DNA from: Citreicoccus inhibens
Lineage (GTDB): Bacteria; Myxococcota; Myxococcia; Myxococcales; Myxococcaceae
NCBI RefSeq assembly: GCF_019039035.1
Contig: NZ_JAHNZT010000001.1
Coordinates: 62,001 to 126,000 of the forward strand
Reading direction: 5' to 3'
DNA: 64,000 bases
The notes below the pieces were generated by a model. The model was not told the origin of the DNA, searched no databases, and was given only the letters and a program-made list of their open reading frames with translations. Below, one piece after another: positions 5,312-59,971 of this stretch; within the stretch, counting starts at the first letter, position 1; each line of letters starts with the position of its first letter. The translations under genes were made by a program, and so were the position numbers.

Positions 5312-5401
5312 GGCGTCATGTCGTGGCGCTGCGGGTCGGAGGGGTCCGCCTTCCCCAGAGCCGCTCGCCCCCGCCGAGGAGATTGCACATCACCGGTCTG
5401 A

Positions 5402-5506: not shown

Positions 5507-5621
5507 AGGGTAACCCCGCTCAGTCCACTCGCGGCCTCCTCGCCTCCCGCCGGTCTTTGCCGACCGCTGCCTGGGGCGCCACGCTCGCCATCTCCTCTTC
5601 TGGATGAGGCCAGGCGAGGAG

Positions 5622-6334: not shown

Positions 6335-6360
6335 GAAGCGCTCGCGAACACAGCGGGGCG

Positions 6361-6819: not shown

Positions 6820-6867
6820 CGCGACTCACGGTGGGGAACCGGCGCGAGCGTACCGCAGGCACGCCGA

Positions 6868-6915
6868 TTGACGGCCATTCAATAGCCGGCTACCATTTTC
6901 CTCGCTAGCCAGCTA
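6868..6915 (+). promoter_or_regulatory. sigma70-like promoter with two palindromic operator candidates
   Basis: TTGACG (6868-6873), a 17-base spacer and TACCAT (6891-6896) form a credible -35/-10 pair pointing at the gene starting at 6935. The perfect palindrome TAGCCGGCTA (6883-6892) overlaps the spacer and -10 element. A near copy, TAGCCAGCTA (6906-6915), lies 23 bases further, centre to centre, about two helical turns away on the transcription start. This is the expected layout for repression by the divergent MarR protein. The functional assignment is inference. Confidence 0.5.
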
Positions 6916-6934
6916 ACGAACGAGAGCGTCCTCG

Positions 6935-40182: not shown

Positions 40183-40362
40183 CACCCCTCCAACCAGGTC
40201 CGATTTGACGGCGGCAACTCCAAGCTGTCGGACGCGCTCTTCCGCGCGGGCAAGCACCACGAGCTGCTCGCCATCAGCGGCGCCCCCCATCACGTGGTGG
40301 ACCCGCTCCTCAACACACACCTGTGGGAGCGGGTGATGCGCCACCTCCACGACACTCTCTAG
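40183..40362 (+). pseudogene. 3' remnant of an S9 (prolyl oligopeptidase/DPP-IV) peptidase gene
   Basis: The frame reads VRFDGGNSKLSDALFRAGKHHELL, then HLWERVMRHLHDTL and TAG. The spacing N-S-x-x-L-x-x-A-L-x-x-A-G-K-x-x-E-L, followed later by H-x-W-x-R-x-x-R-x-L, matches the last 60 or so residues of DPP-IV-like peptidases (helix after the catalytic Asp). The catalytic His position appears altered (GAPHHV), and nothing upstream encodes the rest. The stop overlaps that of the convergent monooxygenase. No other gene is visible in 40009-40182. Confidence 0.55.
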
Positions 40363-43279: not shown

Positions 43280-45025
43280 ATGAGCGAGCCACTCAGCACA
43301 TTGCGAGCAGACCTGTTCCTGCTGCACGCGCCGAGTGTCTATGATTTCCGCGACCGGGACGACGTGCTGTTCGCCTATCTGAGCGACTCCGACAGCGTCA
43401 ACGTCACGTCCATCTACGAGATGTATCCGATTGGCTTCCTCGCGCTGAAGGAGCACCTGCGCGCGCACGGCCTCTCGGTGGACATCGTCAACGTGGCGGC
43501 GCTGATGCTCCAGCACCCGGCGCTGGACGTGGACCGGCTCCTGGAGCGGCTGGAGGCCCCGGTCTTCGGCGTGGACTTGCACTGGCTGGCGCACGGCCAC
43601 GGCGCCATCGAGCTGGCGGGCCGAATCAAGCGAGCCCATCCCGAGGCGATCATCCTCTGCGGAGGAATCTCCGCCACGTATTACGCGGAGCAGCTCATCC
43701 AGTACCCGGCCATTGACGTCGTGGTGCAGGGCTACGACACGCTGGAGCCCACGCGGCGGTTGGTCGAGCGCATCCAGCGCGGTGAGCGGAACCTGGAGGG
43801 CATCCCCAACCTCCTGTTCAAGCGCCAGGGCCGCATCGAGCGCACCGGCTTCGCGCACAAGCCCGCCCGCGACTCCAACGACGCCACGGTGGACTGGGGC
43901 TTCTACCGGGACGCCCCCGGCGACGTGGCCGCGACGCGGCTCATCATGACGCTGCCCAACACCGGGTGCGCGTATGACTGTGGTTGGTGTGGAGGATCGC
44001 GCTCGGCGTTCCGTCAGGTCATGGGCGTCAAGAAGACGCTCATCCCGAAGCACCACCAGCGCGTCGTCGATGAGCTGCGCACCCTGGGCCCCACCGCCAC
44101 GCAGACGGGCATCTACGCGCTCCAGTGCTACTCGGAGACGCGCCCGCGCTTCCACGCGTATCTGGATGCAGTGCGCGAGGCCGGCTACCGCCAGCTCTTC
44201 GTCGAGCAGTTCCACCTCACGCCCGAGGACACGCTGCGGCGGATGGGTCAGGCCAGTCAGACCTACATCCTCTTGTCGCCCGAGTCGCATGACCCGGTCA
44301 TCAGCAAGCTGGCCGGGCGCGGGACGTACACGATGGAGCAGATGGAGGCGTGGATTCCGCGCGCGCTCGACGCGGGTATCGCGGGCGTCCTCATCTGGTT
44401 CTTCCTCGGGATGCCCCAGCAGACGCCGCAGTCCATCTCCGACACAGTGGACTACTGCATCGGCCTCCTGGAGCGCTTTCCGGGCCGGCGTGTGCTGCCC
44501 CTGCTGTGTCCCATGGTGCCATTCCTGGACCCGGGCTCGCGCTTCTTCGAGGACCCCGAGCCCCATGGCTATCGCCTCTTCCACCGCACGCTGGAGGAGC
44601 ACCGGCGCGCCTTGGTGGAGCCGCTCTGGCATCGGCGGCTGAACTACGAGACGCGCTGGCTGTCACGGCGCCAGCTCCAGGACGCCACGTACGGCGCGGT
44701 GGCTCGCCTCGTGGAAGCCAAGGGACAGGCGGGCGTGCTCCCTCGCGGCGTGTGCCAGGGAATCCTCTCCGCCATCTCCGAAACCGAGACACTGCTCGGT
44801 GAGATGGAACAAGCGCTGACGCGGGATGGTGCGCTGACCGCTCCGCTGCGCGACGACATCCGCGCGTACAACCGGCGCGTCCTGTCGCACTCGAGCGACC
44901 AGATCGTGCCCCTCCCCCGCCCCTTCGGAGGTCGCTGGTTCGACGACTTCACCGTGCCCGCGTCAATGCTGGCGCAGCTGCAAGGGAAGGCCTTCCACGC
45001 GGCGCGCGCCCAAGGAGAAGGCTGA
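43280..45025 (+). CDS. cobalamin-binding-type radical SAM protein, first gene of the biosynthetic operon
   Basis: 581 residues. N-terminal B12-binding-like Rossmann domain about residues 45-160 (YEMYPIGFLALKEHLRAHGL, FGVDLHWLAHGHG, IILCGGISATYYAEQL). The radical SAM [4Fe-4S] motif CAYDCGWC (CxxxCxxC, about residue 230) is preceded by MTLPNTGC and followed by barrel segments with FVEQFHLTPEDTLRRMG and ILLSPESHDP. The opening LLHAPSVYDFR and EMYPIGF recall the Ta0216 (TIGR04190-like) family, from memory. Only three bases separate it from the next gene, so it is co-transcribed with the proline-oxidising set. The reaction is unknown; methylation at an unactivated carbon or another radical step is inference. 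Confidence 0.85.
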   Translation: MSEPLSTLRADLFLLHAPSVYDFRDRDDVLFAYLSDSDSVNVTSIYEMYPIGFLALKEHLRAHGLSVDIVNVAALMLQHPALDVDRLLERLEAPVFGVDLHWLAHGHGAIELAGRIKRAHPEAIILCGGISATYYAEQLIQYPAIDVVVQGYDTLEPTRRLVERIQRGERNLEGIPNLLFKRQGRIERTGFAHKPARDSNDATVDWGFYRDAPGDVAATRLIMTLPNTGCAYDCGWCGGSRSAFRQVMGVKKTLIPKHHQRVVDELRTLGPTATQTGIYALQCYSETRPRFHAYLDAVREAGYRQLFVEQFHLTPEDTLRRMGQASQTYILLSPESHDPVISKLAGRGTYTMEQMEAWIPRALDAGIAGVLIWFFLGMPQQTPQSISDTVDYCIGLLERFPGRRVLPLLCPMVPFLDPGSRFFEDPEPHGYRLFHRTLEEHRRALVEPLWHRRLNYETRWLSRRQLQDATYGAVARLVEAKGQAGVLPRGVCQGILSAISETETLLGEMEQALTRDGALTAPLRDDIRAYNRRVLSHSSDQIVPLPRPFGGRWFDDFTVPASMLAQLQGKAFHAARAQGEG

Positions 45026-45028
45026 GCC

Positions 45029-46174
45029 ATGGACTTCGCGTGGGCGCCCGAAGACGCGCGGATGAAGTCGGACGCCGCCGCGTTCGGCCGCGAGCGCCTC
45101 GCCTTCGACGTGGGGGCGTTGGACCGCGACGGGACCTTCAATCACGAGGGCTGGCGGCGGGCCGCGGAGTTCGGCGTGCTCGGCCTTTCCCTCCCGCGTC
45201 GCTACGGAGGCGCCGAGCGGCCGCTGCTCACCACCGTCCAGGCGATGGAGGGCTTGGGGCTGGGGTGCACAGACAACGGCCTCTGGTTCGCGTTGGGCGC
45301 GCACCTGTGGGCGTGCGCGTGGCCCATCCTCCTGGTGGGCACGGAGGAGCAGAAGGAGCGCTACCTGCCCTCGCTGGCCCGCGGGGTGCGCGTGGGCAGC
45401 CACGCGATGACCGAGCCGGAGGCGGGCTCGGACGTGGCGGCGCTGCGCACGACGGCCACCCGGCGCGGAGCGGGCTATGTCCTCCAGGGCCGCAAAATCT
45501 TCGTCACCAACGGGCCCGTCGCGGACCTGACCGTGGTCTTCGCGACGGTGGACCCCGCGCGGGGACGCGAAGGTCTGACGGCCTTCCTGGTGGAGCGTGG
45601 GCAACCGGGCCTCCACCTGGAGCGCACGGTTTCGAAGATGGGGCTCAGGACCGCGAGCATGGGCGAGCTGCGGCTGGACGGCTGCGAGGTTCCGGTGTCA
45701 CAGCGCCTGGGTGAAGAGGGCGCGGGCCTGCCCTTGTTCGCGCAGCTCATGGAGTACGAGCGCGGCCTCATCCTCGCCCCGGCGCTCGGCGTGATGGAGC
45801 GAATCCTGGAGCGCTGCGTGCGCCACGCGCGCGAGCGTCGGCAGTTCGAGCGGCGCATCGGCGACTTCCAGGCCGTGTCCACCAAGCTGGTGGAGATGCG
45901 GCTGCGCCTGGAGACAGCGCGCGGGCTGCTGTACCGCTTCGCGTGGCTCAAGCAGCAGGGCCGCAGCGCGATGTTGGAAGCATCGCTGGTGAAGCTCCAC
46001 GTGAGCGAGGCCTGGGTGCAGACGTGCCTGGACGCGATGCAGGTCCACGGCGGCCAGGGCTACCTCACGGAGACGGGGTTGGAGCGGGAAGCGCGCGATG
46101 CGCTGGGGAGTCGCATCTTCTCCGGCACCTCGGAGATCCAGCGAGACCTCGTGGCTCGGATGATGGGCCTCTGA
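45029..46174 (+). CDS. acyl-CoA-dehydrogenase-like flavoprotein, predicted prolyl-S-carrier oxidase (PltE-like)
   Basis: 381 residues, the normal length. FAD and substrate motifs of the family: HAMTEPEAGSDVAALRTTA (about residue 130), RKIFVTNGPVADLTVVFA, the flavin-binding HARERRQFERRIGDFQAV and the C-terminal GGQGYLTETGLEREARDALGSRIFSGTSEIQRDLVARMM. With the proline-specific ligase and free carrier protein that follow, it fits the PltE/RedW-type enzyme that oxidises prolyl-S-carrier twice to pyrrolyl-2-carboxyl-S-carrier. Sequence alone would allow other acyl substrates; context makes proline most likely. It follows the radical SAM gene by three bases. Confidence 0.88.
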   Translation: MDFAWAPEDARMKSDAAAFGRERLAFDVGALDRDGTFNHEGWRRAAEFGVLGLSLPRRYGGAERPLLTTVQAMEGLGLGCTDNGLWFALGAHLWACAWPILLVGTEEQKERYLPSLARGVRVGSHAMTEPEAGSDVAALRTTATRRGAGYVLQGRKIFVTNGPVADLTVVFATVDPARGREGLTAFLVERGQPGLHLERTVSKMGLRTASMGELRLDGCEVPVSQRLGEEGAGLPLFAQLMEYERGLILAPALGVMERILERCVRHARERRQFERRIGDFQAVSTKLVEMRLRLETARGLLYRFAWLKQQGRSAMLEASLVKLHVSEAWVQTCLDAMQVHGGQGYLTETGLEREARDALGSRIFSGTSEIQRDLVARMMGL

Positions 46175-46193: not shown

Positions 46194-47759
46194 ATGCTGT
46201 ATCCGTTGCTCGAAGACAGCGCGCGTGCTTTCGCCCACCTGCCCGCCGTCATCGACGGCCTTCGCGTCCTGACGTTCGGCGAGTTGGACGCGGCGGCCGG
46301 GCGCTTGGCGCGCACGCTGAGAGCCCACGGCATTGGACGGGGCCATCGCGTGGGCCTCCACCTGGACAAGTCGCTGGAGGCCGTGGTGGGGCTGTTGGGC
46401 ATCCTGCGCGCTGGCGCCGCCTACGTGCCCTTGGATGGCAGCGCGCCCGCGTGGCGGCTGGAGTTCATCGCGCGCGACTGCGAGCTGTCCGGAGTGCTCA
46501 CCACGCCCGCCTGGATGGACACGCTGGGCTCCGTGAGCAGCCTGCGCTGCGCCATCCTCGTTGGGGCCACGCCCCAGGAGTGGCGCGCCGAGCCAGGCGG
46601 CCCGCCGACCCTCTCGTGGGACGCGGCGCTCGCGGGTCCCGACACAAGCGAGCCCTCCCCAGTGGAAGGCTCGCCCGAGGACCTGGCGTACATCCTCTAC
46701 ACCTCGGGCTCCACCGGGCAGCCCAAGGGGGTGATGCTCAGCCACCGCGCCGCGCGCGCGTTCGTGGACTGGGCCCACGCCGAGGCGGACATCCGGCCCG
46801 GGGACCGCGTGTCGAGCCACGCGCCCCTCCACTTCGACCTGTCCATCCTCGACCTCTTCGCGGCGGTGAAGGGGGGCGCGGCCATCGTCCTGGTGCCGCC
46901 GGCGCTGTCTGTCTTTCCTCGCGAGCTGGCGGACTTCATCGAGGCCCAGCACATCAGCGTCTGGTACTCCGTGCCCTCGGTGCTCACGCAGTTGGTGGCG
47001 CGAGGCGAGCTGGGGCGCCACGGCTTCCGAGCCCTGCGCACCGTGCTCTTCGCGGGCGAGGTCTTCCCGCTGAAGTACTTGCGCCGCTTCGTCCAGACAC
47101 TGCCGCACGTGCGCTGCCTCAACCTCTACGGGCCCACCGAGACGAACGTGTGCACGTTCCAGCCGGTGGGGCCGCGCGAGCTGGCGGGCACCGAGAGCCT
47201 GCCCATTGGACAAGCGTGCTGCGGGGACGAGGTGTTCCTCCTCGGCGATGACGGCGCGGAGGCGCGGCCGGGGGACGAAGGGGAGCTGTGCGTGGCGGGC
47301 CCCACCGTGATGAGCGGCTACTGGGGCATGCCGGAGCGCACGCGGGCCGTGCTGGGGCCACTCCTGGGACGGGCGCGCGCGTACCGGACGGGCGACCGCG
47401 CCCGGCGCGACGAGGCGGGCGTCCTCCACTTCCTGGGGCGCCGTGACGACCTGGTGAAAGTACGAGGACACCGCGTGGAGCTGAGCGCGGTGGAGGAGGT
47501 GCTGCTGCGGCATCCGGACGTGGAGGAGAGCGCGGCGGTGACGCTGCCCGACGAGCTCACCGGCAACGAGCTGCGGGCCTTCGTCGTGCTCCGTGCCGCG
47601 TCCGCCATCAGCCCGCAAGAACTCAGGATGCACTGCGCGGAGTACCTGCCCCGCTACATGGTCCCCGCCCGCATCGACCCATGTCGCGCCTTGCCGAAGA
47701 CGACGACGGGGAAGAAGGACCGGGTACGGCTCCAGGAGCGGGCGCGCGAGCTCGGGTGA
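46194..47759 (+). CDS. stand-alone adenylation enzyme, predicted L-proline-AMP ligase (PltF-like)
   Basis: 521 residues. ANL core motifs: LAYILYTSGSTGQPKGVML (A3, about residue 165), HFDLSILDLF (A4), LNLYGPTETNVC (A5), GELCVAGPTVMSGYWG (A6), YRTGDRARRDEAG (A7), GRRDDLVKVRGHRVEL (A8) and KTTTGKKDR (A10 Lys). Aligning to GrsA-Phe positions 235, 236, 239, 278, 299, 301, 322, 330 and 331 by eye gives D-L-L-Y-L-A-L-V-C, the code I recall for PltF-type proline ligases. No carrier is fused; the free PCP 81 bases downstream is the partner. It activates L-proline and loads it for oxidation to pyrrole. Confidence 0.92.
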   Translation: MLYPLLEDSARAFAHLPAVIDGLRVLTFGELDAAAGRLARTLRAHGIGRGHRVGLHLDKSLEAVVGLLGILRAGAAYVPLDGSAPAWRLEFIARDCELSGVLTTPAWMDTLGSVSSLRCAILVGATPQEWRAEPGGPPTLSWDAALAGPDTSEPSPVEGSPEDLAYILYTSGSTGQPKGVMLSHRAARAFVDWAHAEADIRPGDRVSSHAPLHFDLSILDLFAAVKGGAAIVLVPPALSVFPRELADFIEAQHISVWYSVPSVLTQLVARGELGRHGFRALRTVLFAGEVFPLKYLRRFVQTLPHVRCLNLYGPTETNVCTFQPVGPRELAGTESLPIGQACCGDEVFLLGDDGAEARPGDEGELCVAGPTVMSGYWGMPERTRAVLGPLLGRARAYRTGDRARRDEAGVLHFLGRRDDLVKVRGHRVELSAVEEVLLRHPDVEESAAVTLPDELTGNELRAFVVLRAASAISPQELRMHCAEYLPRYMVPARIDPCRALPKTTTGKKDRVRLQERARELG

Positions 47760-47840: not shown

Positions 47841-48140
47841 GTGAATCAGACAATCGGGGACTTTACCGAGGAGCAGGTCGCTCGAATCATCCGCGACCAC
47901 ATCGACCAGGAGTTCCTCTTCCGCTCGCGCGACGCGGGGCTGACCGAGGAGGACAGCCTCATCTCTCGCGGGGTCATCGACTCGATGGGGCTGTTCCGGC
48001 TCGTGAACTTCCTGGAGCGGCGCTTCGCCATCTGCGTCAGCCCGCCGGACATCGTCATGGACAACTTCCGCAGCCTGCAGGCTATCCGCGTCTTCACCCT
48101 CGCCCGGCTGCGCGCCAGGGCCTGCGCGGAGCAATGCTGA
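47841..48140 (+). CDS. free peptidyl carrier protein (PltL-like)
   Basis: 99 residues. The phosphopantetheine site is the Ser in GVIDSMGLFRLVNFLE (about residue 50), with the preceding LTEEDSLISRG and C-terminal helices as in type II carriers. It is placed directly after the proline ligase and overlaps the next gene. It is predicted to carry prolyl- then pyrrolyl-2-carboxyl thioester. A 4'-phosphopantetheinyl transferase is not encoded in the window. Confidence 0.9.
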   Translation: MNQTIGDFTEEQVARIIRDHIDQEFLFRSRDAGLTEEDSLISRGVIDSMGLFRLVNFLERRFAICVSPPDIVMDNFRSLQAIRVFTLARLRARACAEQC

Positions 48141-49948
48141 TGCAAGCCGACGTCTGGAGGGCCTTCCAGCGGCTGCACGCCCTGCGCTCCGCCGCGCCAC
48201 CGCTGGTGCGCGGCACGCGCCAGGGAGGCACGCGCGCGTCGTTCGCGCAGGAGCGCCTGTGGTACCTGGACCAGGCCAATCCCGGGGGCACTGCGTACCA
48301 CCTGCCTGTCGCGTTCCGCATGGAAGGGGCGCTGGACACGCGCGCGCTGCGGCTGGCGCTGGAGACCATCGAGCATCGTCACGAGGCCCTCCGCACCTCG
48401 TTCGATTCGAGCCGGGGTCTGGTCGTTCAGCGCGTGCGCCCTCCCGGCGCGTTCCGAATGTCGAGCGTGTCGCTGCGCGAGTTGGAGCCGAGCCAGGAGG
48501 GCTTCGCCGCGAGACTCCAGGAGGCGCTGGCACGCGAGGCATGGCGCCCGTTCGACCTGCTGAGGGATCCGCTGTTCCGGGCGACGCTGTTCGAGCTGCG
48601 GGATGACGACCACGTCCTGCTGCTCAACTTCCACCACATCATCTACGACGGCTGGTCACAGGACGTGCTGTTCCGCGAGGTGTCCGCCCTCTACGACGCG
48701 TTCCGGCTGAAGCGACCGTCTCCCCTGTCCGAGCTGACCATCCAGTGCGCGGACCACGCGCGATGGCAGCGGTCATGGCTGCGAGGCCGCGTGCTGGAAG
48801 GACTGCAAGACCACTGGCGCAAGTGCCTGTCGAGCCGCCTGCATGGGCCTCGGTTGCGCGTGGGCCGTCCCGACGCGGCGACCTCGCACGCACGAAGCCG
48901 CGAGCTGGGCGTGTTGCCGCTGCGCTTGCCCGCGCCCCTGGCCTCGGCGGTCCTCCACATGACCCGCGAGGCGGGCGTCACGGTCTTCATGACGCTGCTG
49001 GCCGCGTTCCAGGTGTTGTTGCATCGATACTCGGGCAATCAGCCCAAGCTGTTCGTGTGCAGCCCCATCGCCAATCGCCAGCGCAGCGAGGTGGAGCCGC
49101 TCATCGGCTACTTCACCAACCTGCTCGTGCTGCCCACGGACCTGCGCGGAGACCCGAGCTTCCACCAGGTGCTGGAGCAGGCAAGGGGCATGGTGTCGGG
49201 CGCGCTGGCGCATCAGGACCTGCCAGTGCAGCTCATGGACGGGTTGGACCTGGGCAATGAGCCCCTGTCGCAGGTCCTCTTCTCCTACGAGAACACGCCG
49301 CGCCATCCGCTGACGCTGTCGGAGCTGCGCATCCGCCCGGTGGAGCTGTCCGGAGGGACGTGCGACTTCGACCTCTTCCTCGCGCTGCACGAAGACGGCG
49401 GCGACATCGCGGGCACGCTCAAGTACTCGCGCCACTTGCTGGACGATGCGGATGCGGTGCGCTTGCTGGAGGACTTCCTGGCCGTACTGAGCCAGGCGAT
49501 GGCCGCTCCCGAGCGGCACGCGTCCGAGTTCCTGCCGACGTGCCCCGCGGGCATCGAGTCCCCGCGCGAAGCCGACGTGCCGTCCCGAAGGCCCGCGGCC
49601 GCGACGGCGGACCTGCTGGGTGGACTGCGCGCGGCGGGCCCCGAGCGGCGCAAGGCGCTCTTGCGCGAGTACCTCCACGAGACGCTCGTGCGGGTGGCGC
49701 TGCGTGGGCAGCGGCCGGAGCAGCCCATCCACTCGCTCCAAGAGCTGGCGCTCGACTCGCTCCGGCTCATCGAGTTGACCGGGCGCATCCGCACGGAGCT
49801 GTCCATCGACATGCCCGTGTCGCGGTTCTTCGAGGCGACGAGCCTGGAGGTGCTGGCCGACGAGCTGCTGGCCCGTTGGCTGCGCGCCCAGGTCTCCGAG
49901 ACTCGGCCCGAGGCGACGGGGACGGGCCGCGAGTTCGTCACGCTGTAA
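48134..49948 (+). CDS. NRPS condensation-carrier didomain protein without adenylation domain
   Basis: 604 residues from ATG 48134 (or ATG 48140, which abuts the carrier stop as TGATG). C domain about 30-450: SFAQERLWYLDQANPGG (C1), HRHEALRTSF (C2), catalytic NFHHIIYDGW (HHxxxDG, about 165), VCSPIANRQRSEVEPLIGYFTNLLVLP (C5-like) and HQDLPVQLMDGL. PCP about 510-580 with LALDSLRLIELTGRIRTEL (Ser attachment about 541). No A domain. It could transfer the pyrrolyl group from the free carrier to its own PCP, or use an amino acid loaded in trans. The C domain is of the ordinary amide-forming type, not Cy. Confidence 0.9.
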   Translation: MLMQADVWRAFQRLHALRSAAPPLVRGTRQGGTRASFAQERLWYLDQANPGGTAYHLPVAFRMEGALDTRALRLALETIEHRHEALRTSFDSSRGLVVQRVRPPGAFRMSSVSLRELEPSQEGFAARLQEALAREAWRPFDLLRDPLFRATLFELRDDDHVLLLNFHHIIYDGWSQDVLFREVSALYDAFRLKRPSPLSELTIQCADHARWQRSWLRGRVLEGLQDHWRKCLSSRLHGPRLRVGRPDAATSHARSRELGVLPLRLPAPLASAVLHMTREAGVTVFMTLLAAFQVLLHRYSGNQPKLFVCSPIANRQRSEVEPLIGYFTNLLVLPTDLRGDPSFHQVLEQARGMVSGALAHQDLPVQLMDGLDLGNEPLSQVLFSYENTPRHPLTLSELRIRPVELSGGTCDFDLFLALHEDGGDIAGTLKYSRHLLDDADAVRLLEDFLAVLSQAMAAPERHASEFLPTCPAGIESPREADVPSRRPAAATADLLGGLRAAGPERRKALLREYLHETLVRVALRGQRPEQPIHSLQELALDSLRLIELTGRIRTELSIDMPVSRFFEATSLEVLADELLARWLRAQVSETRPEATGTGREFVTL

Positions 49949-49985
49949 GGCGACAGGGCGCCGCGCGCGCTTGGGGGGAGAGGTC

Positions 49986-51149
49986 ATGAGCTATCAAGCC
50001 GATGCCTGGGTCATCGAAGCGGGTGAGGTGGGACGTCCGGGCCGCGCGCGCCTGAAGCGCACGCGCGTCACCGTGGAGTCCATCCGCGACGACGAGGTCC
50101 TCGCAGCGCCGGTGTGTGGCTGCTGGGAGGGCAACACCGAGCACGCGCTGGCGCGCACGCCCATCGACATCTGCCGGGCCCGGCGCGAGCCCCAGGTCGT
50201 GCTGGGCAACGCGGGCGTGGTGCGCGTGCTGGAGACGGGCAAGGCCGTCACGCAGGTGCGCACGGGGCAGCTCGCGATGATGTTCCCCAGCGGAGAGACG
50301 GACGCGTACGGCTACACCGTCAAGGCGCTCGGCTACGAGGCGCCGGGGCAGATGGGCTGCATGGCCACGCTCATGAAGCTGCGCGGCGCGCAGCTCATCC
50401 CCGTGCCGGAGAACTCGCGCCACACGCCCGCGCAGTGGGCCGCGTTCAGCGTCCGCTACGTCACCGCGTGGGCGAACTGGCGGCTGGCCTCGGCGGTCTT
50501 CCGACTCCAGGTCCCCGAGGAGGAGTGCCCCACCCCGCAGGCCTGGGGCTGGGGGGGCGGGACGACCCTCGCCGAGCTGACCCTGGCCAAGGCTCAGGGC
50601 TGGCGGGCCGTCATGCTGTCCGGCTCGCCGCACCACCTGGATGAGATCCAGCGCGCGGGGTTGGAGGCCATCGACCGGAACACCTTCGGGCGGCTGAGCC
50701 ACGAGCCACACCGCGTGGAGACGGACCTCGACCATCGCCACGCCTATCAGCAAGCGGAGACGGCCTTCCTCGCCGAGGTCGCGCGCCGCACCGAGGGCGC
50801 GATGGTGCACGTGTTCCTCGACTACATCGGCACGCCCGTCCACCGGGCCACGCTCCGGGCGCTGGCGCGCCAGGGCGTGCTCGCCACCGCGGGCTGGAAG
50901 GAGGGCATGGAGCTGACGCTGCTGCGCGCGCGGGAGTGCATCACCCGCCACCAGCACATCCACACCCACTTCGCGCGCTACCAGGAAGGACTGGACGCGG
51001 TGGCCTATGGCGAGGCCATGGGCTGGATGCCGCAGGTGGACAGCCGGCTGTACGGGTTCGACGAGCTGCCGGCGCTCGCCGATGACTACCACCGAGGCGC
51101 GACGGGGTACTTCCCCTGCTTCCTCGTCAACGCGGAGGAGTGGACATGA
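49986..51149 (+). CDS. MDR-superfamily oxidoreductase (crotonyl-CoA-reductase/quinone-reductase-like)
   Basis: 387 residues from ATG 49986, behind GGGGAGAGG. GroES-like N-terminal domain (ARREPQVVLGNAGVVRVLETGKAV) and a nucleotide-binding domain with the glycine-rich AWGWGGGTTLAELTLAKAQGWRAVMLSG (about residue 185). The structural-zinc Cys quartet of alcohol dehydrogenases is absent; the GGGTTLAELTLAKA block is like crotonyl-CoA carboxylase/reductases. Its role is probably NAD(P)H-dependent reduction of an enoyl or carbonyl thioester in trans, since the downstream module has no ER domain. It overlaps the NRPS start as ATGA, so it is part of the operon. Confidence 0.85.
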   Translation: MSYQADAWVIEAGEVGRPGRARLKRTRVTVESIRDDEVLAAPVCGCWEGNTEHALARTPIDICRARREPQVVLGNAGVVRVLETGKAVTQVRTGQLAMMFPSGETDAYGYTVKALGYEAPGQMGCMATLMKLRGAQLIPVPENSRHTPAQWAAFSVRYVTAWANWRLASAVFRLQVPEEECPTPQAWGWGGGTTLAELTLAKAQGWRAVMLSGSPHHLDEIQRAGLEAIDRNTFGRLSHEPHRVETDLDHRHAYQQAETAFLAEVARRTEGAMVHVFLDYIGTPVHRATLRALARQGVLATAGWKEGMELTLLRARECITRHQHIHTHFARYQEGLDAVAYGEAMGWMPQVDSRLYGFDELPALADDYHRGATGYFPCFLVNAEEWT

Positions 51150-54100
51150 GGCCCGTGGACGGGGGCGTCACCGCGCTCCTCACCCGCGTGTTCGACCTGG
51201 GCATTCGTCTGTGGATCGAGGACGGGAAGCTGGCCATCGACGCGCCTCACGGCGCGCTCACCGCGGAGCTTCGCGAGGCGCTGGCCGAGCACAAGGCCGA
51301 GGTGCTGGCGCTCCTGGAGCATGGCCAGGGCGACGCGCGCGCGGCCGAGTTGCCGGCGCTGCTGTCGCGCCCTCGCGAGCGGCACCTCCCCTTCCCGCTC
51401 ACCGACATCCAGCAGGCGTATTGGGTCGGGCGTGGGGGCGACGTGGAGCTGGGCGCGGCCATCCACGTCTACGTGGAGATCGACAGCGCCACGCTGGAGC
51501 CGGAGCGGCTCGGCGCGGCGTGGCGTCAGCTCATCCAGCGCCACGAGATGCTCCGCGCGGTGGCGACCCCGGACGGCTCGCAGCGCATCCTGGCCCAGGT
51601 CCCCGCCTACGAAGTGGCCGTCGAGGACTACCGCGCCTTGCCCACCGAGGAGCGTGAGCGCCGGTTGGCGGCGCACCGTCAGCGCCTGGAGCATCAGGTA
51701 CTCCCGCTCGACACGTGGCCGCTCTTCGAGCTGCGCGCGGTCCGACTGGAAGACGGACATCGCCTCTTCTTCAGCCTCGACTGCACCTTCGTCGACTCGT
51801 GGAGCGTGCAGATCCTCTTCCGCGAGCTGATGCAGTGCTACGCGACCCCCGACGCGCGCTTGGATCCTCCCGAGCACCGCGCGTCCTTCCGCGACTACGT
51901 CCTGGCCACGCAGGCCCTGCCTGAGACGGAGCGCTACCGCCGCTCGCGGGAGTACTGGCGCGAGCGCATCGGCACGCTTCCACCAGCGCCGGACCTGCCG
52001 CGCGTCCCCAGGGCGCGGGGCGCGCGGCGCCCGCGCTTCGTGCGCCGCGAGGCGCGATTGGAGCGCCCTCGATGGGAGCAGCTCGTGCAGCGCGCCCGCG
52101 AGCTCCAGCTCACCCCCACGGGGCTGCTGCTCGCCTGCTACGCCGAGGTGTTGGCGCACTTCAGCAAGAGCCCGCACTTCACGCTGAACGTCCCGCTCTA
52201 CAACCGCCTGCCTCTCCATGAAGACGTGGGGAAGATGGTGGGCACGTTCTCGTCCTTCCTCCTCGTGGAGGTGGACCATCGCGCCGGCGGCTCCTTCCAG
52301 GAGCGGGCCCGCGCGCTTCAGGCGCAGCTCTTCCGCGACCTGGAGCACCGCGACATCGGCGGCGTGGAGGTGCTCCGGCAACTCTTCCGCGAGCGAGGGG
52401 GCATCTCCGGCGCGCTCATGCCCGTGGTGCTCACCAGCTTCGCCAGCGGCGTGGAGGGGTGGGACTCGTGTTGGGTGGATCATCTGGGCCGCGCGCTCGG
52501 CCGCGTCGTGCACTCCGTCACGCAGACGCCGCAGGTGTGGATTGACCACCAGCTCGTGTTCCAGGACGGCGGCGTCTTCTTCAACTGGGACTCGGCCGAT
52601 GAGCTGTTCGCGCCCGGGCTCCTCGACGCGATGTTCGCCGCGTATCAAGGGCTGCTTGAACGACTGGTGACCGAGCCCGACGTCGTGCGGGAGCAGCCGT
52701 TGCGGCTGACCGCGCCTCGCGTGGCGGCCGGGCCTCGGCGCGACAGTCTCGGCACGGACGCATTGCTGCACACGCGGTTCGTGGAGCAGGCCCTCGCGAA
52801 TCCCGAGCGCCTCGCGGTCATCGCGCCCGAGCGCACCCTCACCCATGGCGAGCTGCTCGCACGCGCCACGGCCCTGGCCAACCAGCTCAGCCGCGAGGGG
52901 GCTCGCCGGAACCATCCCGTGGCGGTGGTCATGGAGAAGGGCTGGGAGCAGGTGGTGGCCACGGTCGCGGCCTCGCTCGCGGGCGCGCCGTATCTGCCCA
53001 TTGACGCGGGCGCCCCCCGTGAGCGGCGATGGCGGCTGCTGGCGGATGGGGGCTGCGAGCTGGCGCTCACCCAGCCCTGGCTCGACGCACAGCTCGAATG
53101 GCCCGAGGGCGTCCAACGCTTGCCGGTGACCGCCGGGCCCGCCGCGCCCGTTCATCGCGACGACGTTCCTGTCTCCGCGCAGGGACCGGATGACCTGGCC
53201 GTCATCATCCCCACCTCGGGCTCAACAGGCCGCCCCCAGGGCGTCATGCTGGCCCATCGCGGACTGGTCCACGCGCTCGATGAGACGCTGCGCGAGTTCC
53301 AGGTGGGCCCGGAGGATCGCGTCCTCGCGTTGACCGCGCTGCATCACGACATGTCGCTCTTCGACGTGTTCGGGATGTTGTCCGCGGGCGGGGCGATCGT
53401 CCTGTGTGAGCCCGCCGCGCGCAAGGAGCCCTCGCGCTGGGCCCAGCTGCTGCGGCGTGAGCGCGTCACCGTGTGGAACTCCGTGCCCGGAATGATGGAG
53501 ATGCTCCTGGCGCATGCGCAGGAGCGGCCCGAGGCGCTCGCGCCCACGCTGCGGCTGGCGTTCCTCGGCGGGGACTGGATTCCGCTCAGCCTCCCGGAGC
53601 GACTGCGCGCGCTCGTGCCGGGCGTGCAGCCGGTGAGCGTGGGCGGCCCCACCGAGACGAGCCTGTGGAACATCTGGTACCGCATCGGCGCCGTCGAGCC
53701 GGACTGGGCGAGCATTCCCTACGGCCGGCCCATCGCGGACACGCGCTACCACGTCATGGACGAAGCGCTCCGCGAGCGGCCCGTCTGGGTCCCGGGGGAG
53801 CTGTGTTGCGCGGGCGTGGGCGTGGCCCAAGGGTACTGGCGGAATCCGGAGCGCACGCGCGAGCGCTTCGTCACGCACCCCGTCACGGGCGAGCGGCTGT
53901 ATCGCACGGGTGACCTCGGCCGCCTGTTGCCGGATGGGAACATCGAGATTCTCGGCCGCGTGGACTTCCAGCTCTCCATCCTCGGACACCGCGTGGAGCC
54001 CGGGGAGATTGAGGCCGCGCTCCGCGCGCATCCCCAGGTTGAGGGCGCGGTCGTGGTGGCGGATGGAGACCGCCACGCGCCTCGGCTGGTCGCGTACGTG

Positions 54101-57100
54101 GTGGACAAGCCCGGCGCCGCGCTGGGCGCGGAGACGTTGCGCGCCCATCTCCAGGAGCGGCTCGCGGAGCACATGGTCCCCGCGGTCTTCGTCTTCCTGG
54201 AGCGATTCCCCCTGGGCCCCACCGGGAAGGTGGACCGCGCGGCGCTCCCCCGGCCCGAGACCGCGCTTCCCTCCCCTGCGCCTCGGGGTCCCGAAACCAG
54301 CGCGGCGCCCCCTGACGTCGAGGAGGCCTTGGCGGAGCTCGTTCGGGACGAACTCCGCGTCCCTGCGGTGGACCGGCGTCGCAGCTTCTTTGAACTGGGC
54401 GCCAACTCCGTGCACCTGGTGCGCATCGCCGCGCGCATCCGTCGCGAGCTGGGCGTGGACATTCCCACCGCCGAGCTGTTCCAGAACGCGAACCTGGCGG
54501 CGTTGGCCGCGCACCTCGGACGCGCGCGGCGGGGCGAAGCGGGAGCGCCCGCGGCCCGCGTCCTGGAAGCCCGCGCGAGCGCCCTGGAGCGCGGCCCCAT
54601 CGCCATCATCGGAATGAGCGCACGGCTCCCGGGCGCTCCCGATGTCGAGACGTACTGGCGCAACCTCACCGGCGGCGTCGAGTCCGTGCGCTTCTTCACC
54701 GACGAGGAGCTGCTCAACGAGGGCCTCGCGCGGGAGTTGTTGCAGGACTCGCGCTACGTGAAGGCGGGCGCCGTGCTGGAGGACATCGCGGGCTTCGACG
54801 CGGGGTTCTTCGGCCTCACGGCGCGGGAGGCGGTGCTGACGGATCCGCAGCACCGCCTGTTCCTCGAGTGCGCCTGGGAGGCCCTGGAGCGCTCGGGCTA
54901 TCGCCCGGACGCCACGGGGAAGAAGGTCGGCGTGTTTGGTGGCAAGAGCATGGGCCACTACCTCACCCCTGCCTTGGACCTCTCCCAGCCGCTGCCCTAC
55001 TTCCAGCGGCTGTTTGGCAACGACAAGGACTTCGTCGCCACCCAGGTCTCCTACAAGCTCCACCTCACGGGTCCGAGCATCACGCTCCAGACCGCGTGCT
55101 CCACCTCGCTCGTGGCCGTGGCGCTGGCGTGCCAGTCGCTGTGGAACCGCGACTGCGAGATGGCCCTGGCGGGGGGCGTGTCCATCAAGGTCCCGCACCA
55201 CTTGGGGTACCTGTCCGAGCCGGACTCCGGGATGTTCTCGCCGGATGGGCACTGCCGCCCGTTCGACGCGCGCGCGCAGGGCATCCTCCCCGCGAGCGGC
55301 GCGGGCCTCGTGGTGCTCAAGCGGCTGGAGGACGCGCTCGCGGATGGGGACCACATCCACGCGGTCATCCTCGGGGCGGCGGTCAACAACGACGGCGGCG
55401 ACAAGGTGGGCTTCTCCGCGCCCAGCCGCGACGGGCAGGCGGAGGTCATCGCACGCGCCCAGGCCATGGCGGGCGTGGCACCCCACACGGTGCGCTACGT
55501 GGAGGCCCACGGCACCGGCACCCCCATGGGGGATCCGCTGGAGATCGCCGCGCTGACGCAGGCGTTCCGACTGGGGACCGAGGACACCGGCTTCTGCGCG
55601 GTGGGTTCATCCAAGTCCAACTTCGGCCACCTGGACACGGCCGCGGGCGTGGCCGGGCTCATCAAGGCCGCGCTCTCCATCGAGCGGGGCCTCATCCCGC
55701 CGACGCTCCACTTCGACACGCCCAACCCCGCCATCGACTTCGCGCGCACGCCCTTCTACGTCAACACGCACCTGCTGCCGTGGCCGGACGATGGCCATCC
55801 CCGTCGCGCGGGCGTGAGCTCGTTCGGAGTGGGCGGCACCAATGCCCACGTCATCCTCGAAGAGGCGCCCCGCCGCGTGCCCGAGCGGCTTCGCAGGAGG
55901 GACGCGACGCACCTGGAGCGCCCGCTGCACCTCTTGCCGCTCTCGGCGCGAAGCCCCAGCGCGCTTCAGGTCCTGTCCCGCCGCTTCGAGGACCTGCTGG
56001 CCGACGCGCCCGAGTCCGCGTTGGCGGACATCGGGTACACCGCGAGCGTCGTCCGCTCGCACCTGCCCCACCGGCTGGCCATCGTGGGCCGCACGCCTCG
56101 CGAGATGCGCGAGCAACTGCGCGCGGCGCGCGAGGGGCTGGCCGCGCCCGGCATCATGCGCGGCACCGCGGAGGGGACACCGCGCGTGGCGTTCCTGTTC
56201 ACCGGCCACGGCGCCCACCACCCCGGCATGGGGCGCGGGCTCTATGAGACACAGCCCGTCTTCCGTCGCGCGATGGAGCGCGTGGATGGCCTGCTGCGCC
56301 CGGAGCTGGACACGCCGCTCGTGGAGGTCCTCTATGGCAAGGAGGGCCGGCGCCTCGCGGAGGTCGCCTATGCGCAGCCCGCGCTGTTCGCCGTGGAGTA
56401 CGCGCTGAGCGAGGTCTGGCGCGCATGGGGCATCACCCCCGACGCGGTCCTGGGCCACAGCCTGGGCGAGTATGTCGCGGCCCTCCAGGCCGGTGTCTTC
56501 AGTCTCGAGGATGCGGTGCGGCTCGTCGCGGCGCGCGGGCGACTCATCGAGCAGCTGGGACTGGAGGGCGAGACGCTCGTGGTGCTCGCGGACGAGGCGC
56601 GGATCCGCGAGGCCGCCGCACCGTTCGGGACCCGGCTGGCGATTGCCTCGCTCAATGCGCCCGAGAACATCATCGTCTCGGGCGAGGGCCCCGCGGTGCG
56701 CGCGCTGGCGGAGGACCTGCGCGGCCGAGGCATCGAGACCAAACGGCTGGAGGCCTCTCGAGCCGCCCACTCGCACCTCATGGACCCCGTGCTGCCCGCG
56801 TTCGAGGACCTGGCGCGAGGCATCGCGTTCCAACCGCCCTGCGTTCCACTCGTGTCCAACCTCACGGGCCGCTGGGCGAGGCGAGAGGTCGCCTCGGCGC
56901 GGTACTGGGCTCGCCATCTGCGCGAGCCCGTGCGGCTCGCCGATGGCATGCGGGCGCTGGGCGAGCGAGGCATCCACGTCTTCTTGGAGCTGGGCCCCAA
57001 GCCCACGATGTTGTGGATGGGGCGCGAGTGTCTGCCCACGCAGCCCGCGTTGTGGTTGAGCAGCCTGCGACAGGGACATGACGATTGGCGCCAGATGCTG

Positions 57101-59971
57101 GAGTGCCTGGGCGCCCTGCACAGCCGAGGCGCGCCGGTGGACTGGCGAGGCTTCGAGCAAGGACGTGCCCGCCGTCGCGTGGTGCTGCCCACGTACCCCT
57201 TCGAGCGTCAGCGCTACTGGGCGGACGAGGCTGGAGCACGCGCCGGGCCAGCACGCGTGGGGCACCCGCTGCTCGGCGCACGCGTGGAGTCCGCCGCGTT
57301 GCGGCCTGGGGAGCTTGTCTTCGAGTCTCGCCTGGGCATCACGACGCCGGCCTACCTGGGTGACCACCGCGCCCGCGGCACCGCGCTGCTGCCCGCCACC
57401 GCACACGTCGAGCTGCTGCTCGCCGTGGCCGCCGTGGCGCTGCCCGAGCGCGCACCCGTCATCGAGGAACTGCGGCTGGAACACGCGCTCGTGCTCCCCG
57501 AGCATGGCGAACTCACCGTGCAGGTCGTCGCGCGCCCACGCACCGACGCGGCCTTCGAGGTGGAGGTCTTCCGTCGCGAGGACCCTCCGGGGAGTGGCGC
57601 GACCTGGACGCGCCATGCCGTGGGGCTCCTTCGCGCCGCGCGCGCCGACGAGCAACCTCCCGCGCGCCTGGACACGGCACGCGCCAGCACAGGCGAGGTG
57701 GAGACCGGGGACACGCACTACGAACGGGCCCAGGCCCTGGGCATCACGTTCGGCGAGGCGTTCCGCGGCCTGCGCGAGCTGTGGCGCGACGACATGGGCG
57801 TGGGGGCGCGCATCGAGAGTCCCGCGTGCCTCACGGCAGAGTGCGCGCCCCACCATGTGCACCCCGCGGTGTTGGACGCCTGTCTCCAGCCCGTGGTCGC
57901 CATGGCGCCGCCACCCGCGCCAGGAGAGTGGTGGGTGCCCGCGCGCTTCGAGCGGGTGCGCGTGCACCACCTGCCCTTGCCCGCGCGCCTGGTGAGTCGC
58001 GTCACCCAGCGGACTCCGCTCATCGCGGACGTGGCGCTCTTCGACGAAGCGGGGAACGCGTACCTCAGCGTGGAGGGCTTCGAGCTGCGCAGGACGCGCG
58101 GCGATGCGCTCGTCCCCGAGGCCCGTCCGGGGTTGGCCGAGGCGTTGTACGAACCCGGCTGGCGAGAGCAGGCGCGCCCCGTGCGCGAGGTCGTGCCTCC
58201 GCCTTCCACGTGGCTCATCCTCGCGGACGACCAGGGCCTCGGCGAGACGCTGGCGACGCAGTTGGAGGAGGCTCGCGAGTCCTGCATCGTCGCCCATGCG
58301 GGTGTGGGGTATGCGCGGCGAGGCCCACGACAGTTCCAGGTGGACCCCTCGCGCCCCGAGGACTTCACGCGGCTGCTCGATGAAGCCGTGCCTCCCGGAC
58401 GTCCGTTGCGGCAGGTGCTGTACCTGTGGGCGCTCGATGCGCCCGCGCCCGCCGGGCTGCAAGCCGAGGGGCTCGCGCGGGCGAGCGTGCGCATCTGCGG
58501 CGGAGCGTTGCATCTCGTGCAGGCGCTCACCGGACGCAGCGACGCGCCTCCCGCGCTTCACTTCGTCACGCGCGGCACGCGGGGCACGGACGTCGGACTC
58601 CAATCCGCGTTGTCGGGGCTGGGACAGGTCATCGCCCTGGAGCACCCCGAGCTGGGATGCCGGTGCGTGGACCTTGCCCCGGGGAGTGGCCTGGAGGCGT
58701 GCACGGAGCTGCTCGCCGAGGTGCGTTCGGGCAGCCTGGAGGCGCAGGTCCAGCTCGACGCGGGACGCCGCCGCGTGGCACGCCTGCGCCCCGCCGAGGC
58801 CCTGGGCTCGCCCGAGTTCCTTCGCCCCGACGCGACCTATCTCATCACGGGCGGCTTTGGCCGACTGGGACAGCTCGTCGCCCGCGCGATGCTGGAGCGC
58901 GGCGCACGGAACCTCGCACTGCTCGGGCGACGTGTCCCGCCGCGAGGCAGCGAAGGGCTCGCGGCGCTTCAGGCCACCGGCGCGAACGTCGTGCTCCTGG
59001 AGGCGGACGTCTCCAAGCCGCGCTCGCTCGCCGCCGCGGTGGATGGCGTGCGGCGCGCGATGCCTCCCTTGCGCGGGGTCATCCACGCGGCGGGCACCGT
59101 GTTGGACGGCCCCGTGCAGACGCAGTCCTGGGAAGCCTTCGCGAGCGTGCTGGCGCCCAAGGTCCAAGGCGCGTGGAACCTCCACCGCGCGACGCAGGGC
59201 GTGGAGTTGGACTTCTTCATCCTCTTCGCGTCCGTGGCGTCGCTGCTCGGCAACGCGGGGCAGGCCAGCTACGCGGCGGCCAACTCCTTCTTGGATGGAC
59301 TGGCCCGACACCGACGCTCGCTAGGACTTCCCGCGCTGAGCATCGCGTGGGGCCCCTGGTCCGATGAGGGCGCCGCGGCGGGTGAGGCCACCGCGGAGCG
59401 CCTCCGTCGTCAGGGGCTCGGACTGTTCTCACCCGCGCAGGGGCTCGCGGTGCTGCATCGCCTGTGGAGCCATCCCCACGCGCAGGTGGCCGTGGCCCCC
59501 ATCGACTGGAAGCCCTTCCTCACGACCCACGCTTCGACGTTCTTCGCGGACATGTCACTCCAGGTCGAGGCGCCGCGACGCGCGGGCGCCGCGAGGCTCC
59601 TCCAGCGCCTGGAGGCAATGCCCCCCTCGGAGCGGCATCCGCTGCTCCGCGCGCACGTGAGGGAGCAGGTGGCGGCGGTCCTTGGACTGGCGCCCTCGGC
59701 GGTCGGGATGGGGCGCGGCCTCTTCGACCTGGGGCTCGACTCGCTCGGCTCGTTGGAGATCCGCAATCGGTTGCAGGCCTCGCTCGCGTGCGACCTCCCC
59801 TCCGTCGTGGTGTTCAAGCATCCCAGCGTCGAGCAGCTCGCCACCTACCTGGCCACCGAGGTGCTCCGGATGGATCCACAGACGCTCGCCGGAGAACCTG
59901 GGACCGCGCAGGAGCCTCCCTTGGAGGAAGTCATCCGGCGACTGGAGCGGAAGCTGGAGGACCTGGGCTGA
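51146..59971 (+). CDS. hybrid NRPS-PKS: TubC docking-Cy-A-PCP-KS-AT-DH-KR-ACP
   Basis: 2941 residues from ATG 51146 (RBS GGAGGAG at 51134-51140). TubC-like docking domain about 8-55 (FDLGIRLWIEDGKLAID). Cyclisation domain about 78-510: LTDIQQAYWVGR, DxxxxD motif in DCTFVDSWS. A domain about 535-1030: IPTSGSTGRPQG, HHDMSLFDVF; pocket by eye D-M-F-N-F-G-V-L-W, closest to Cys/Thr/Ser types. PCP about 1085 (LGANSVHLV). KS about 1150-1570 (TACSTS, EAHGTGT, NFGHLD). AT about 1680-1970 (GHSLGEY; substrate motif RAAHS instead of HAFH). DH about 2038-2310 (DHRARGTALLP, HPAVLDACLQ). KR about 2560-2740 (TGGFGRLG, SYAAAN). ACP about 2862 (LGLDSL). No oxidase, ER or TE. Predicted product step: pyrrolyl-azoline, then one double bond. 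Confidence 0.95.
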   Translation: MRPVDGGVTALLTRVFDLGIRLWIEDGKLAIDAPHGALTAELREALAEHKAEVLALLEHGQGDARAAELPALLSRPRERHLPFPLTDIQQAYWVGRGGDVELGAAIHVYVEIDSATLEPERLGAAWRQLIQRHEMLRAVATPDGSQRILAQVPAYEVAVEDYRALPTEERERRLAAHRQRLEHQVLPLDTWPLFELRAVRLEDGHRLFFSLDCTFVDSWSVQILFRELMQCYATPDARLDPPEHRASFRDYVLATQALPETERYRRSREYWRERIGTLPPAPDLPRVPRARGARRPRFVRREARLERPRWEQLVQRARELQLTPTGLLLACYAEVLAHFSKSPHFTLNVPLYNRLPLHEDVGKMVGTFSSFLLVEVDHRAGGSFQERARALQAQLFRDLEHRDIGGVEVLRQLFRERGGISGALMPVVLTSFASGVEGWDSCWVDHLGRALGRVVHSVTQTPQVWIDHQLVFQDGGVFFNWDSADELFAPGLLDAMFAAYQGLLERLVTEPDVVREQPLRLTAPRVAAGPRRDSLGTDALLHTRFVEQALANPERLAVIAPERTLTHGELLARATALANQLSREGARRNHPVAVVMEKGWEQVVATVAASLAGAPYLPIDAGAPRERRWRLLADGGCELALTQPWLDAQLEWPEGVQRLPVTAGPAAPVHRDDVPVSAQGPDDLAVIIPTSGSTGRPQGVMLAHRGLVHALDETLREFQVGPEDRVLALTALHHDMSLFDVFGMLSAGGAIVLCEPAARKEPSRWAQLLRRERVTVWNSVPGMMEMLLAHAQERPEALAPTLRLAFLGGDWIPLSLPERLRALVPGVQPVSVGGPTETSLWNIWYRIGAVEPDWASIPYGRPIADTRYHVMDEALRERPVWVPGELCCAGVGVAQGYWRNPERTRERFVTHPVTGERLYRTGDLGRLLPDGNIEILGRVDFQLSILGHRVEPGEIEAALRAHPQVEGAVVVADGDRHAPRLVAYVVDKPGAALGAETLRAHLQERLAEHMVPAVFVFLERFPLGPTGKVDRAALPRPETALPSPAPRGPETSAAPPDVEEALAELVRDELRVPAVDRRRSFFELGANSVHLVRIAARIRRELGVDIPTAELFQNANLAALAAHLGRARRGEAGAPAARVLEARASALERGPIAIIGMSARLPGAPDVETYWRNLTGGVESVRFFTDEELLNEGLARELLQDSRYVKAGAVLEDIAGFDAGFFGLTAREAVLTDPQHRLFLECAWEALERSGYRPDATGKKVGVFGGKSMGHYLTPALDLSQPLPYFQRLFGNDKDFVATQVSYKLHLTGPSITLQTACSTSLVAVALACQSLWNRDCEMALAGGVSIKVPHHLGYLSEPDSGMFSPDGHCRPFDARAQGILPASGAGLVVLKRLEDALADGDHIHAVILGAAVNNDGGDKVGFSAPSRDGQAEVIARAQAMAGVAPHTVRYVEAHGTGTPMGDPLEIAALTQAFRLGTEDTGFCAVGSSKSNFGHLDTAAGVAGLIKAALSIERGLIPPTLHFDTPNPAIDFARTPFYVNTHLLPWPDDGHPRRAGVSSFGVGGTNAHVILEEAPRRVPERLRRRDATHLERPLHLLPLSARSPSALQVLSRRFEDLLADAPESALADIGYTASVVRSHLPHRLAIVGRTPREMREQLRAAREGLAAPGIMRGTAEGTPRVAFLFTGHGAHHPGMGRGLYETQPVFRRAMERVDGLLRPELDTPLVEVLYGKEGRRLAEVAYAQPALFAVEYALSEVWRAWGITPDAVLGHSLGEYVAALQAGVFSLEDAVRLVAARGRLIEQLGLEGETLVVLADEARIREAAAPFGTRLAIASLNAPENIIVSGEGPAVRALAEDLRGRGIETKRLEASRAAHSHLMDPVLPAFEDLARGIAFQPPCVPLVSNLTGRWARREVASARYWARHLREPVRLADGMRALGERGIHVFLELGPKPTMLWMGRECLPTQPALWLSSLRQGHDDWRQMLECLGALHSRGAPVDWRGFEQGRARRRVVLPTYPFERQRYWADEAGARAGPARVGHPLLGARVESAALRPGELVFESRLGITTPAYLGDHRARGTALLPATAHVELLLAVAAVALPERAPVIEELRLEHALVLPEHGELTVQVVARPRTDAAFEVEVFRREDPPGSGATWTRHAVGLLRAARADEQPPARLDTARASTGEVETGDTHYERAQALGITFGEAFRGLRELWRDDMGVGARIESPACLTAECAPHHVHPAVLDACLQPVVAMAPPPAPGEWWVPARFERVRVHHLPLPARLVSRVTQRTPLIADVALFDEAGNAYLSVEGFELRRTRGDALVPEARPGLAEALYEPGWREQARPVREVVPPPSTWLILADDQGLGETLATQLEEARESCIVAHAGVGYARRGPRQFQVDPSRPEDFTRLLDEAVPPGRPLRQVLYLWALDAPAPAGLQAEGLARASVRICGGALHLVQALTGRSDAPPALHFVTRGTRGTDVGLQSALSGLGQVIALEHPELGCRCVDLAPGSGLEACTELLAEVRSGSLEAQVQLDAGRRRVARLRPAEALGSPEFLRPDATYLITGGFGRLGQLVARAMLERGARNLALLGRRVPPRGSEGLAALQATGANVVLLEADVSKPRSLAAAVDGVRRAMPPLRGVIHAAGTVLDGPVQTQSWEAFASVLAPKVQGAWNLHRATQGVELDFFILFASVASLLGNAGQASYAAANSFLDGLARHRRSLGLPALSIAWGPWSDEGAAAGEATAERLRRQGLGLFSPAQGLAVLHRLWSHPHAQVAVAPIDWKPFLTTHASTFFADMSLQVEAPRRAGAARLLQRLEAMPPSERHPLLRAHVREQVAAVLGLAPSAVGMGRGLFDLGLDSLGSLEIRNRLQASLACDLPSVVVFKHPSVEQLATYLATEVLRMDPQTLAGEPGTAQEPPLEEVIRRLERKLEDLG

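Follow-up and report, generated by a model that had tools for sequence, protein, structure and literature searches.

What does a cobalamin-type radical SAM enzyme contribute to an operon that otherwise encodes a pyrrole starter cassette and a hybrid NRPS/PKS line? In pyrrole cassettes, an adenylation (A) enzyme loads L-proline onto a carrier protein, and a dehydrogenase oxidises it to pyrrole-2-carboxyl-S-PCP. An operon of this kind, headed by a radical SAM gene, lies in the stretch of DNA analysed here (64,000 nucleotides from the myxobacterium Citreicoccus inhibens, hereafter the window), and a sequence-only reading had suggested that the enzyme may methylate or rearrange the pyrrolyl, azoline or polyene part of the product. 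From the domains and gene order observed at the locus, and from a linkage observed across phyla, we infer the substrate, position and timing of the reaction, as well as the use of methylcobalamin. Very probably, the gene encodes a CloN6-type cobalamin-dependent C5-methyltransferase, which would give a 5-methylpyrrole starter to a DKxanthene-like assembly line.

The radical SAM protein

The open reading frame at 43280-45025 (+), which was confirmed, encodes a 581-aa protein, in which a Pfam search placed a B12-binding domain (PF02310, residues 42-154, 6.5e-16) and a Radical_SAM domain (PF04055, residues 227-392, 2.5e-9), both above their gathering scores. For the [4Fe-4S] cluster there is a CxxxCxxC motif, CAYDCGWC (residues 230-237; 43967..43990, +), whose three cysteines do not vary across the 13 rows of a protein alignment. 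The B12-binding-like domain and the motif had been recognized in the sequence-only reading, and the two domains with this motif are what is expected of a CloN6-type methyltransferase. Among NCBIfam models, TIGR04190 (the Ta0216 family) was the best match by far, with 378.9 bits over 503 of 554 positions, a score below the curated cut-off of 500 bits; three orthologues scored 377-395 bits. The BchE, PhpK, HpnR and KedN5 subfamilies gave 16-36 bits against cut-offs of 481-700, none of which was reached. With regard to the two affinities proposed earlier, Ta0216 is thus the nearest named model, albeit below its cut-off, while BchE (30 bits) is far off.

The operon inside and beyond the window

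Three bases separate the stop codon of the radical SAM gene (TGA, 45023-45025) from the start of the next gene (ATG, 45029), exactly the spacing to a prolyl oxidase gene that had been noted before. This next gene encodes an acyl-CoA-dehydrogenase-type protein, a prolyl-carrier-protein dehydrogenase of the PltE/CloN3/PigA type (45029..46174, +), whose top NCBIfam matches, PigA (397 bits, cut-off 500) and L-prolyl-PCP dehydrogenase (383 bits, cut-off 650), both stay below their cut-offs. It is followed by a stand-alone, proline-type A enzyme (46194..47759, +) with the pocket D-L-L-Y-L-A-L-V-C, which we take, in positions and code, to be a PltF-type proline pocket, and by a 99-aa stand-alone carrier protein (47841..48140, +; motif GVIDSM), which has a counterpart of 56% identity in the corresponding position of the Myxococcus genome G112. 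This carrier, which likely carries proline and then pyrrole, was initially hidden because an overcalled GTG frame at 47810 overlaps it in another frame; for the same reason, the condensation domain-carrier protein (C-PCP) gene that follows (48134..49948, +; Pfam domains and comparison with relatives) has an uncertain start, probably at about 48134/48140. Carrier and C-PCP appear as two separate genes in G110 and G112. Next comes an MDR-superfamily reductase-like protein (49971..51149, +), for which domain and model searches gave a weak crotonyl-CoA reductase similarity. The window's operon showed no KASIII-like gene.

The assembly line proper was read from its domains. A hybrid NRPS/PKS subunit (51140..59971, +) has the order TubC_N dock-Cy-A-PCP-KS-AT-DH-KR-ACP, where the Cy assignment rests on the motif DCTFVDSWS, and where the A-domain pocket is D-M-F-N-F-G-V-L-W, compared with HDFSVYDVF and VMLGGDW in DKxanthene-like A domains; Ser, Thr and Cys are candidate substrates that this pocket could not tell apart. 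A PKS subunit, KS-AT-DH-MT-KR-ACP, starts at 59971 (+) and extends past the window's end at 64000 to 66573, and the line continues with KS-AT-DH-KR-ACP and KS-AT-DH-MT-KR-ACP subunits and a lone condensation domain to about 80220 in window coordinates, so that 2 of the 4 PKS modules have methyltransferase domains of their own. The last gene, at 78700-80220 (window coordinates, outside the window), holds a condensation-type domain with HHAVVDG, and no A, PCP or TE domain was found in it. The proline-activation, carrier and prolyl-carrier dehydrogenase genes that a CloN6-type enzyme would call for are therefore present in the same operon, and the description of the locus as a pyrrole-NRPS/PKS operon with a cobalamin-type radical SAM gene at its head holds for both domains and gene order. 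Upstream of the cluster, on the opposite strand, lies a flavin aromatic-ring hydroxylase-like gene (40359-41846, -).

Distribution of the orthologues

Across the myxobacterial order, some match to the radical SAM protein was obtained in 103 of 145 genomes, yet an orthologue in only four: the window genome (100%), one other compared genome of the host genus (G055, 95%) and two Myxococcus genomes (G102, 78%; G105, 77%). The non-orthologous matches reached at most 37% identity, over part of the protein. Such conservation, 95% within the genus and 77-78% against the two Myxococcus proteins, is far beyond chance, and in all four myxobacteria the dehydrogenase and A domain lie directly downstream. 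This narrow distribution gives no sign of a housekeeping role, which had been named earlier as the finding that would speak against a part in the cluster.

A scan of named genomes yielded 12 loci from 341 candidate stretches, eight at 60-78% identity and the remaining four at 24-32%. The eight belong to Myxococcus qinghaiensis (G105), M. llanfairpwllgwyngyll... AM401 (G102), Dactylosporangium roseum, four actinobacterial MAGs, one of which has a broken gene (G198), and an Anaerolineales MAG (G200). Two overlapping draws of Streptomyces gave matches in 3 of 392 and 2 of 371 genomes and added G833, G796 and G948, and among 394 genomes sampled evenly from the class to which D. roseum belongs, only D. 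roseum itself had an orthologue. In total, 13 orthologues including the window protein, 12 of them full length, are 60-95% identical to it; their hosts are a small number of myxobacteria and actinobacteria, plus a single Anaerolineales MAG. The 12 full-length orthologues, placed in a tree of 28 proteins, form one clade (support 100/99) on a long stem, within which the four myxobacterial proteins group together (98/92).

Two distant relatives (L046 and L047, in G149 and G150) share the CGGS motif and have a long extension at the C-terminus, with 31-33% identity measured for L046. The shortened orthologue of G198 (L079, about 3957-4502) is a single frame that lacks residues about 140-518, cysteine motif included, which suggests a remnant or an assembly fault.

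Linkage to pyrrole starter genes

A radical SAM gene was scored as linked when both a dehydrogenase gene and a proline-type A gene lay no more than 10 kb away. This was the case for 9 of the 13 orthologues, those of the four myxobacteria (G000, the host, with G055, G102 and G105), D. roseum (G195), two actinobacterial MAGs (G196, G199) and two Streptomyces (G833, G796), while the remainder of the clusters differs. Counted by lineage, these are four independent linkages (myxobacteria, the Streptomyces pair, D. roseum and the MAG pair); as a rough estimate, a gene placed at random would have a chance of roughly 1% or less of lying within 10 kb of such a dehydrogenase, with a handful per 8-Mb genome.

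The Streptomyces clusters are ordered carrier-KASIII-like-dehydrogenase-A-carrier-radical SAM (first carrier read in G796, second in G833), so that the radical SAM gene stands at the position of CloN6 in a CloN1-CloN6-like cassette. The protein is 62-63% identical to the window's and the starter genes are the same, but they are joined to a terpene glycoside pathway: GGPP synthase and LytB (read in G833), GcpE, Dxs and UbiA (read in G796), P450s, an EryCIII-like glycosyltransferase, sugar genes and a squalene-hopene-cyclase-like protein. From this gene content the clusters were read as phenalinolactone-like. Phenalinolactones bear 5-methylpyrrole-2-carboxylate. The D. roseum cluster has large PKS subunits, and the MAG pair has a P450, a decarboxylase and a MurT-like ligase. 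As judged from these neighbourhoods, the common part of the clusters is the pyrrole starter, and because the orthologues keep the pyrrole genes amid otherwise differing clusters, the substrate would be the carrier-bound pyrrole-2-carboxyl unit, not the azoline or polyene; linkage makes the pyrrolyl assignment well supported. Of the range of substrates and reactions first proposed, the pyrrolyl unit is retained and methylation is the probable reaction, while the inclusion of azoline, polyene and rearrangement was too wide.

Four orthologues fell outside the linkage definition. In G197 and G948 the dehydrogenase/A pair is on another contig (in G197 at the contig's edge), and in G198 a carrier-like gene and an acyltransferase-like gene, but no dehydrogenase/A pair, lie beside the radical SAM gene. 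The Anaerolineales MAG (G200, L076) has a 62% identical orthologue at 5316-7007, accompanied by a PAS histidine kinase and a solute-binding protein, with no pyrrole genes on that contig and a best dehydrogenase match of 36%; the radical SAM contigs of G197 and G200 are just 11.0 and 10.1 kb long. In G948 (L094-L095), the orthologue is followed by a carrier, a non-proline-type A enzyme and A-PCP and C-A-PCP-reductase proteins, and may act there on another carrier-bound acid.

CloN6 as a precedent and the proposed position of the methyl group

A precedent missed by the sequence-only reading is CloN6 of clorobiocin biosynthesis, in which, according to PMC11218499, CloN4 activates and CloN5 carries proline, CloN3 is the oxidising enzyme and CloN2 moves the unit to CloN1, after which CloN6 and CloN7 methylate and transfer it. 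The same paper describes a cloN6 mutant that accumulates novclobiocin 109, with an unmethylated pyrrole (the unmethylated pyrrole also in PMC8992657), and considers CloN6 most likely inactive once the unit sits on the sugar (PMC11218499). For the methylation of a pyrrole carbon by a cobalamin radical SAM enzyme, CloN6 is the genetic precedent; a 2022 review describes its cofactors and mechanism as without biochemical confirmation (PMC8992657). CloN6 and CouN6, the latter from coumermycin A1 biosynthesis, are listed in PMC11659888 under the accessions Q9F8U1 and A0A1H2F7M3. Both are described as being, like the window enzyme, of the cobalamin radical SAM type and accompanied by a proline A enzyme, a carrier and a dehydrogenase; in clorobiocin, however, the acyl group ends on the sugar via CloN2, CloN1 and CloN7, whereas a Cy-type NRPS/PKS lies downstream in the window. 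No clorobiocin-like cluster or CloN6 sequence was found among the overlapping Streptomyces draws (392 and 371 genomes), the named-genome scan or the draw of the D. roseum class (394); the likeness is drawn from described roles and gene place, not sequence identity, and the Streptomyces orthologues in the CloN6 place stand in.

By analogy, the A enzyme (46194-47759) would load L-proline onto the 99-aa carrier, and the dehydrogenase (45029-46174) would oxidise it to pyrrole-2-carboxyl-S-PCP, whereupon the radical SAM enzyme would transfer methyl from methylcobalamin to C5, the alpha carbon of the pyrrole that is still free, with SAM and the [4Fe-4S] cluster remaking or activating the cobalamin cofactor. 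The 5-methylpyrrolyl thioester would then pass to the Cy-A-PCP/PKS subunit, which would add the azoline and a methyl-branched polyene. The C5 position and the action on the carrier are inferred from CloN6. Linkage to a proline A domain and a dehydrogenase tells which unit is acted on and leaves position and order of events free, so methylation of a ring carbon other than C5, or of prolyl-S-PCP before oxidation, would fit it as well; we consider this unlikely, given that CloN6 work has pyrrole formation first and methylation after (PMC10849742), and that clorobiocin is described as carrying a 5-methylpyrrole (PMC11218499). For a biochemical test of CloN6-type chemistry, the clade offers eleven more full-length proteins, 61-95% identical to the window's, and the stand-alone carrier three genes downstream of the radical SAM gene is further material.

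Predicted fold and the type of reaction

An AlphaFold2 model built from 13 sequences had a mean pLDDT of 76.6 and a pTM of 0.78, with residues 194-218 and 226-230 below 50. Compared with solved structures, its top fold match was TsrM (Z 15.3, rmsd 5.8, 395 residues, 16% identity), followed by CysS (Z 14.5), TokK (14.1), MgmA (13.5), OxsB (13.4) and AprD4 (12.9). The modelled fold fits a cobalamin radical SAM methylase. TsrM, a tryptophan C2 methylase, methylates an sp2 carbon of a nitrogen ring, as proposed for the window enzyme; CysS and TokK trail it by just 0.8-1.2 Z, so the TsrM match marks no special link. A TsrM-like polar methyl transfer would go with a non-radical mechanism and a lower cobalamin face that has no His ligand; the comparison made here covered the overall fold. 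With OxsB and AprD4 close behind the methylases, the fold alone leaves the reaction undecided. A search of solved structures by single protein sequence gave a chance match only, and the sole match under E 0.01 in a profile search was AprD4 (5.2e-5, radical SAM part only). That match, the two fold matches and the fact that cobalamin radical SAM enzymes include OxsB, which is not a methylase, are what an OxsB- or AprD4-like rearrangement or oxidation of the substrate would have in its favour; the best fold matches are nevertheless methylases, the gene order matches the CloN6 cassette, and we judge such a reaction very unlikely.

Related cassettes and assembly lines without the gene

A search of the genus Myxococcus found dehydrogenase matches in 20 of 27 genomes. 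Those of G102 and G105, where the radical SAM gene is present, are 79% identical to the window's. Four others (G101, G110, G112 and G113; dehydrogenase 73-75%) have A, C-PCP and reductase-like genes of the window's kind, with the carrier checked in G110 and G112; these four have no radical SAM orthologue, and no similar megasynthase adjoins the starter cassette. They form a small set (L126-L135), dehydrogenase-A-(carrier)-C-PCP-reductase-like, 58-75% identical to the window's. The other Myxococcus matches (49-54%) include a cluster in G103 and G110 that we took as the DKxanthene cluster, and the host itself has a second, DKxanthene-like cluster on contig C31 (L152-L154), i.e. two related pyrrole-azoline-polyene lines, with no radical SAM match beside the one on C31.

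Compared with the window, the DKxanthene-like clusters (G103, G110 and host contig C31) have a 50-52% identical dehydrogenase, a 44-45% identical A domain and a Cy-A-PCP-KS-AT-DH-KR-ACP subunit 47-48% identical along its whole length, but no radical SAM, C-PCP or reductase-like gene was matched in them. They end in a C-A-PCP-matching stretch (about 29% identical to the window's hybrid subunit over the latter's N-terminal 1,100 or so residues), whereas the window line ends in a lone C domain. The window thus has the pyrrole cassette and Cy-A-PCP-PKS subunit of a DKxanthene cluster, and lacks the terminal NRPS module (A and PCP) after the last PKS. We rejected the reading of the window line as the DKxanthene cluster itself, given the host's separate cluster on C31 and the different end.

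Since the cassette and the Cy-PKS subunit each occur without the radical SAM gene, neither needs the enzyme, which appears from these comparisons to be an added tailoring step. The earlier remark that PltE/F/L-type cassettes do without such an enzyme thus extends to the closest relatives of this one, and the proposed comparison of homologous clusters sets nine orthologues that keep the pyrrole cassette beside four Myxococcus cassettes that lack the gene.

Action at a later stage, on the azoline or polyene, would suit a gene in an NRPS/PKS operon, as class B enzymes methylate unactivated carbons. It is hardly to be expected here: orthologues accompany the pyrrole cassette in clusters without such an NRPS/PKS, 2 of the 4 PKS modules can draw on methyltransferase domains of their own, and the host's DKxanthene-like cluster has the Cy-PKS subunit without the radical SAM gene. 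Azoline and polyene were dropped as first-choice substrates because the orthologues retain the pyrrole genes and not the window's NRPS/PKS. That the gene is carried by chance or has a role outside the cluster, as the Anaerolineales orthologue without visible pyrrole genes, and G197 and G948 with theirs only elsewhere, might hint, has a negligible chance of being right, as the gene directly precedes the dehydrogenase in 4/4 myxobacteria and occurs in 4/145 genomes of the order, each time together with this cluster.

For a CloN6-type methylase, whose chemistry is of a known type, heading a DKxanthene-like line seems to be a new setting; in the partial coverage of the literature, nothing joined DKxanthene with a radical SAM enzyme or addressed 5-methylpyrrole-2-carboxylate biosynthesis, and no paper mentioning methylpyrrole together with myxobacteria concerned this by its title. 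More tentatively, methyl transfer to the sp2 carbon of the carrier-bound pyrrole might be polar, perhaps TsrM-like, and the 5-methylpyrrole azoline-polyene line ended by a lone condensation domain might make a second, distinct compound class, a modified pigment being distinct in a host that also has the DKxanthene-like cluster. The predicted product is a specific one: a few Myxococcaceae would make an azoline polyene that carries a 5-methylpyrrolyl group.
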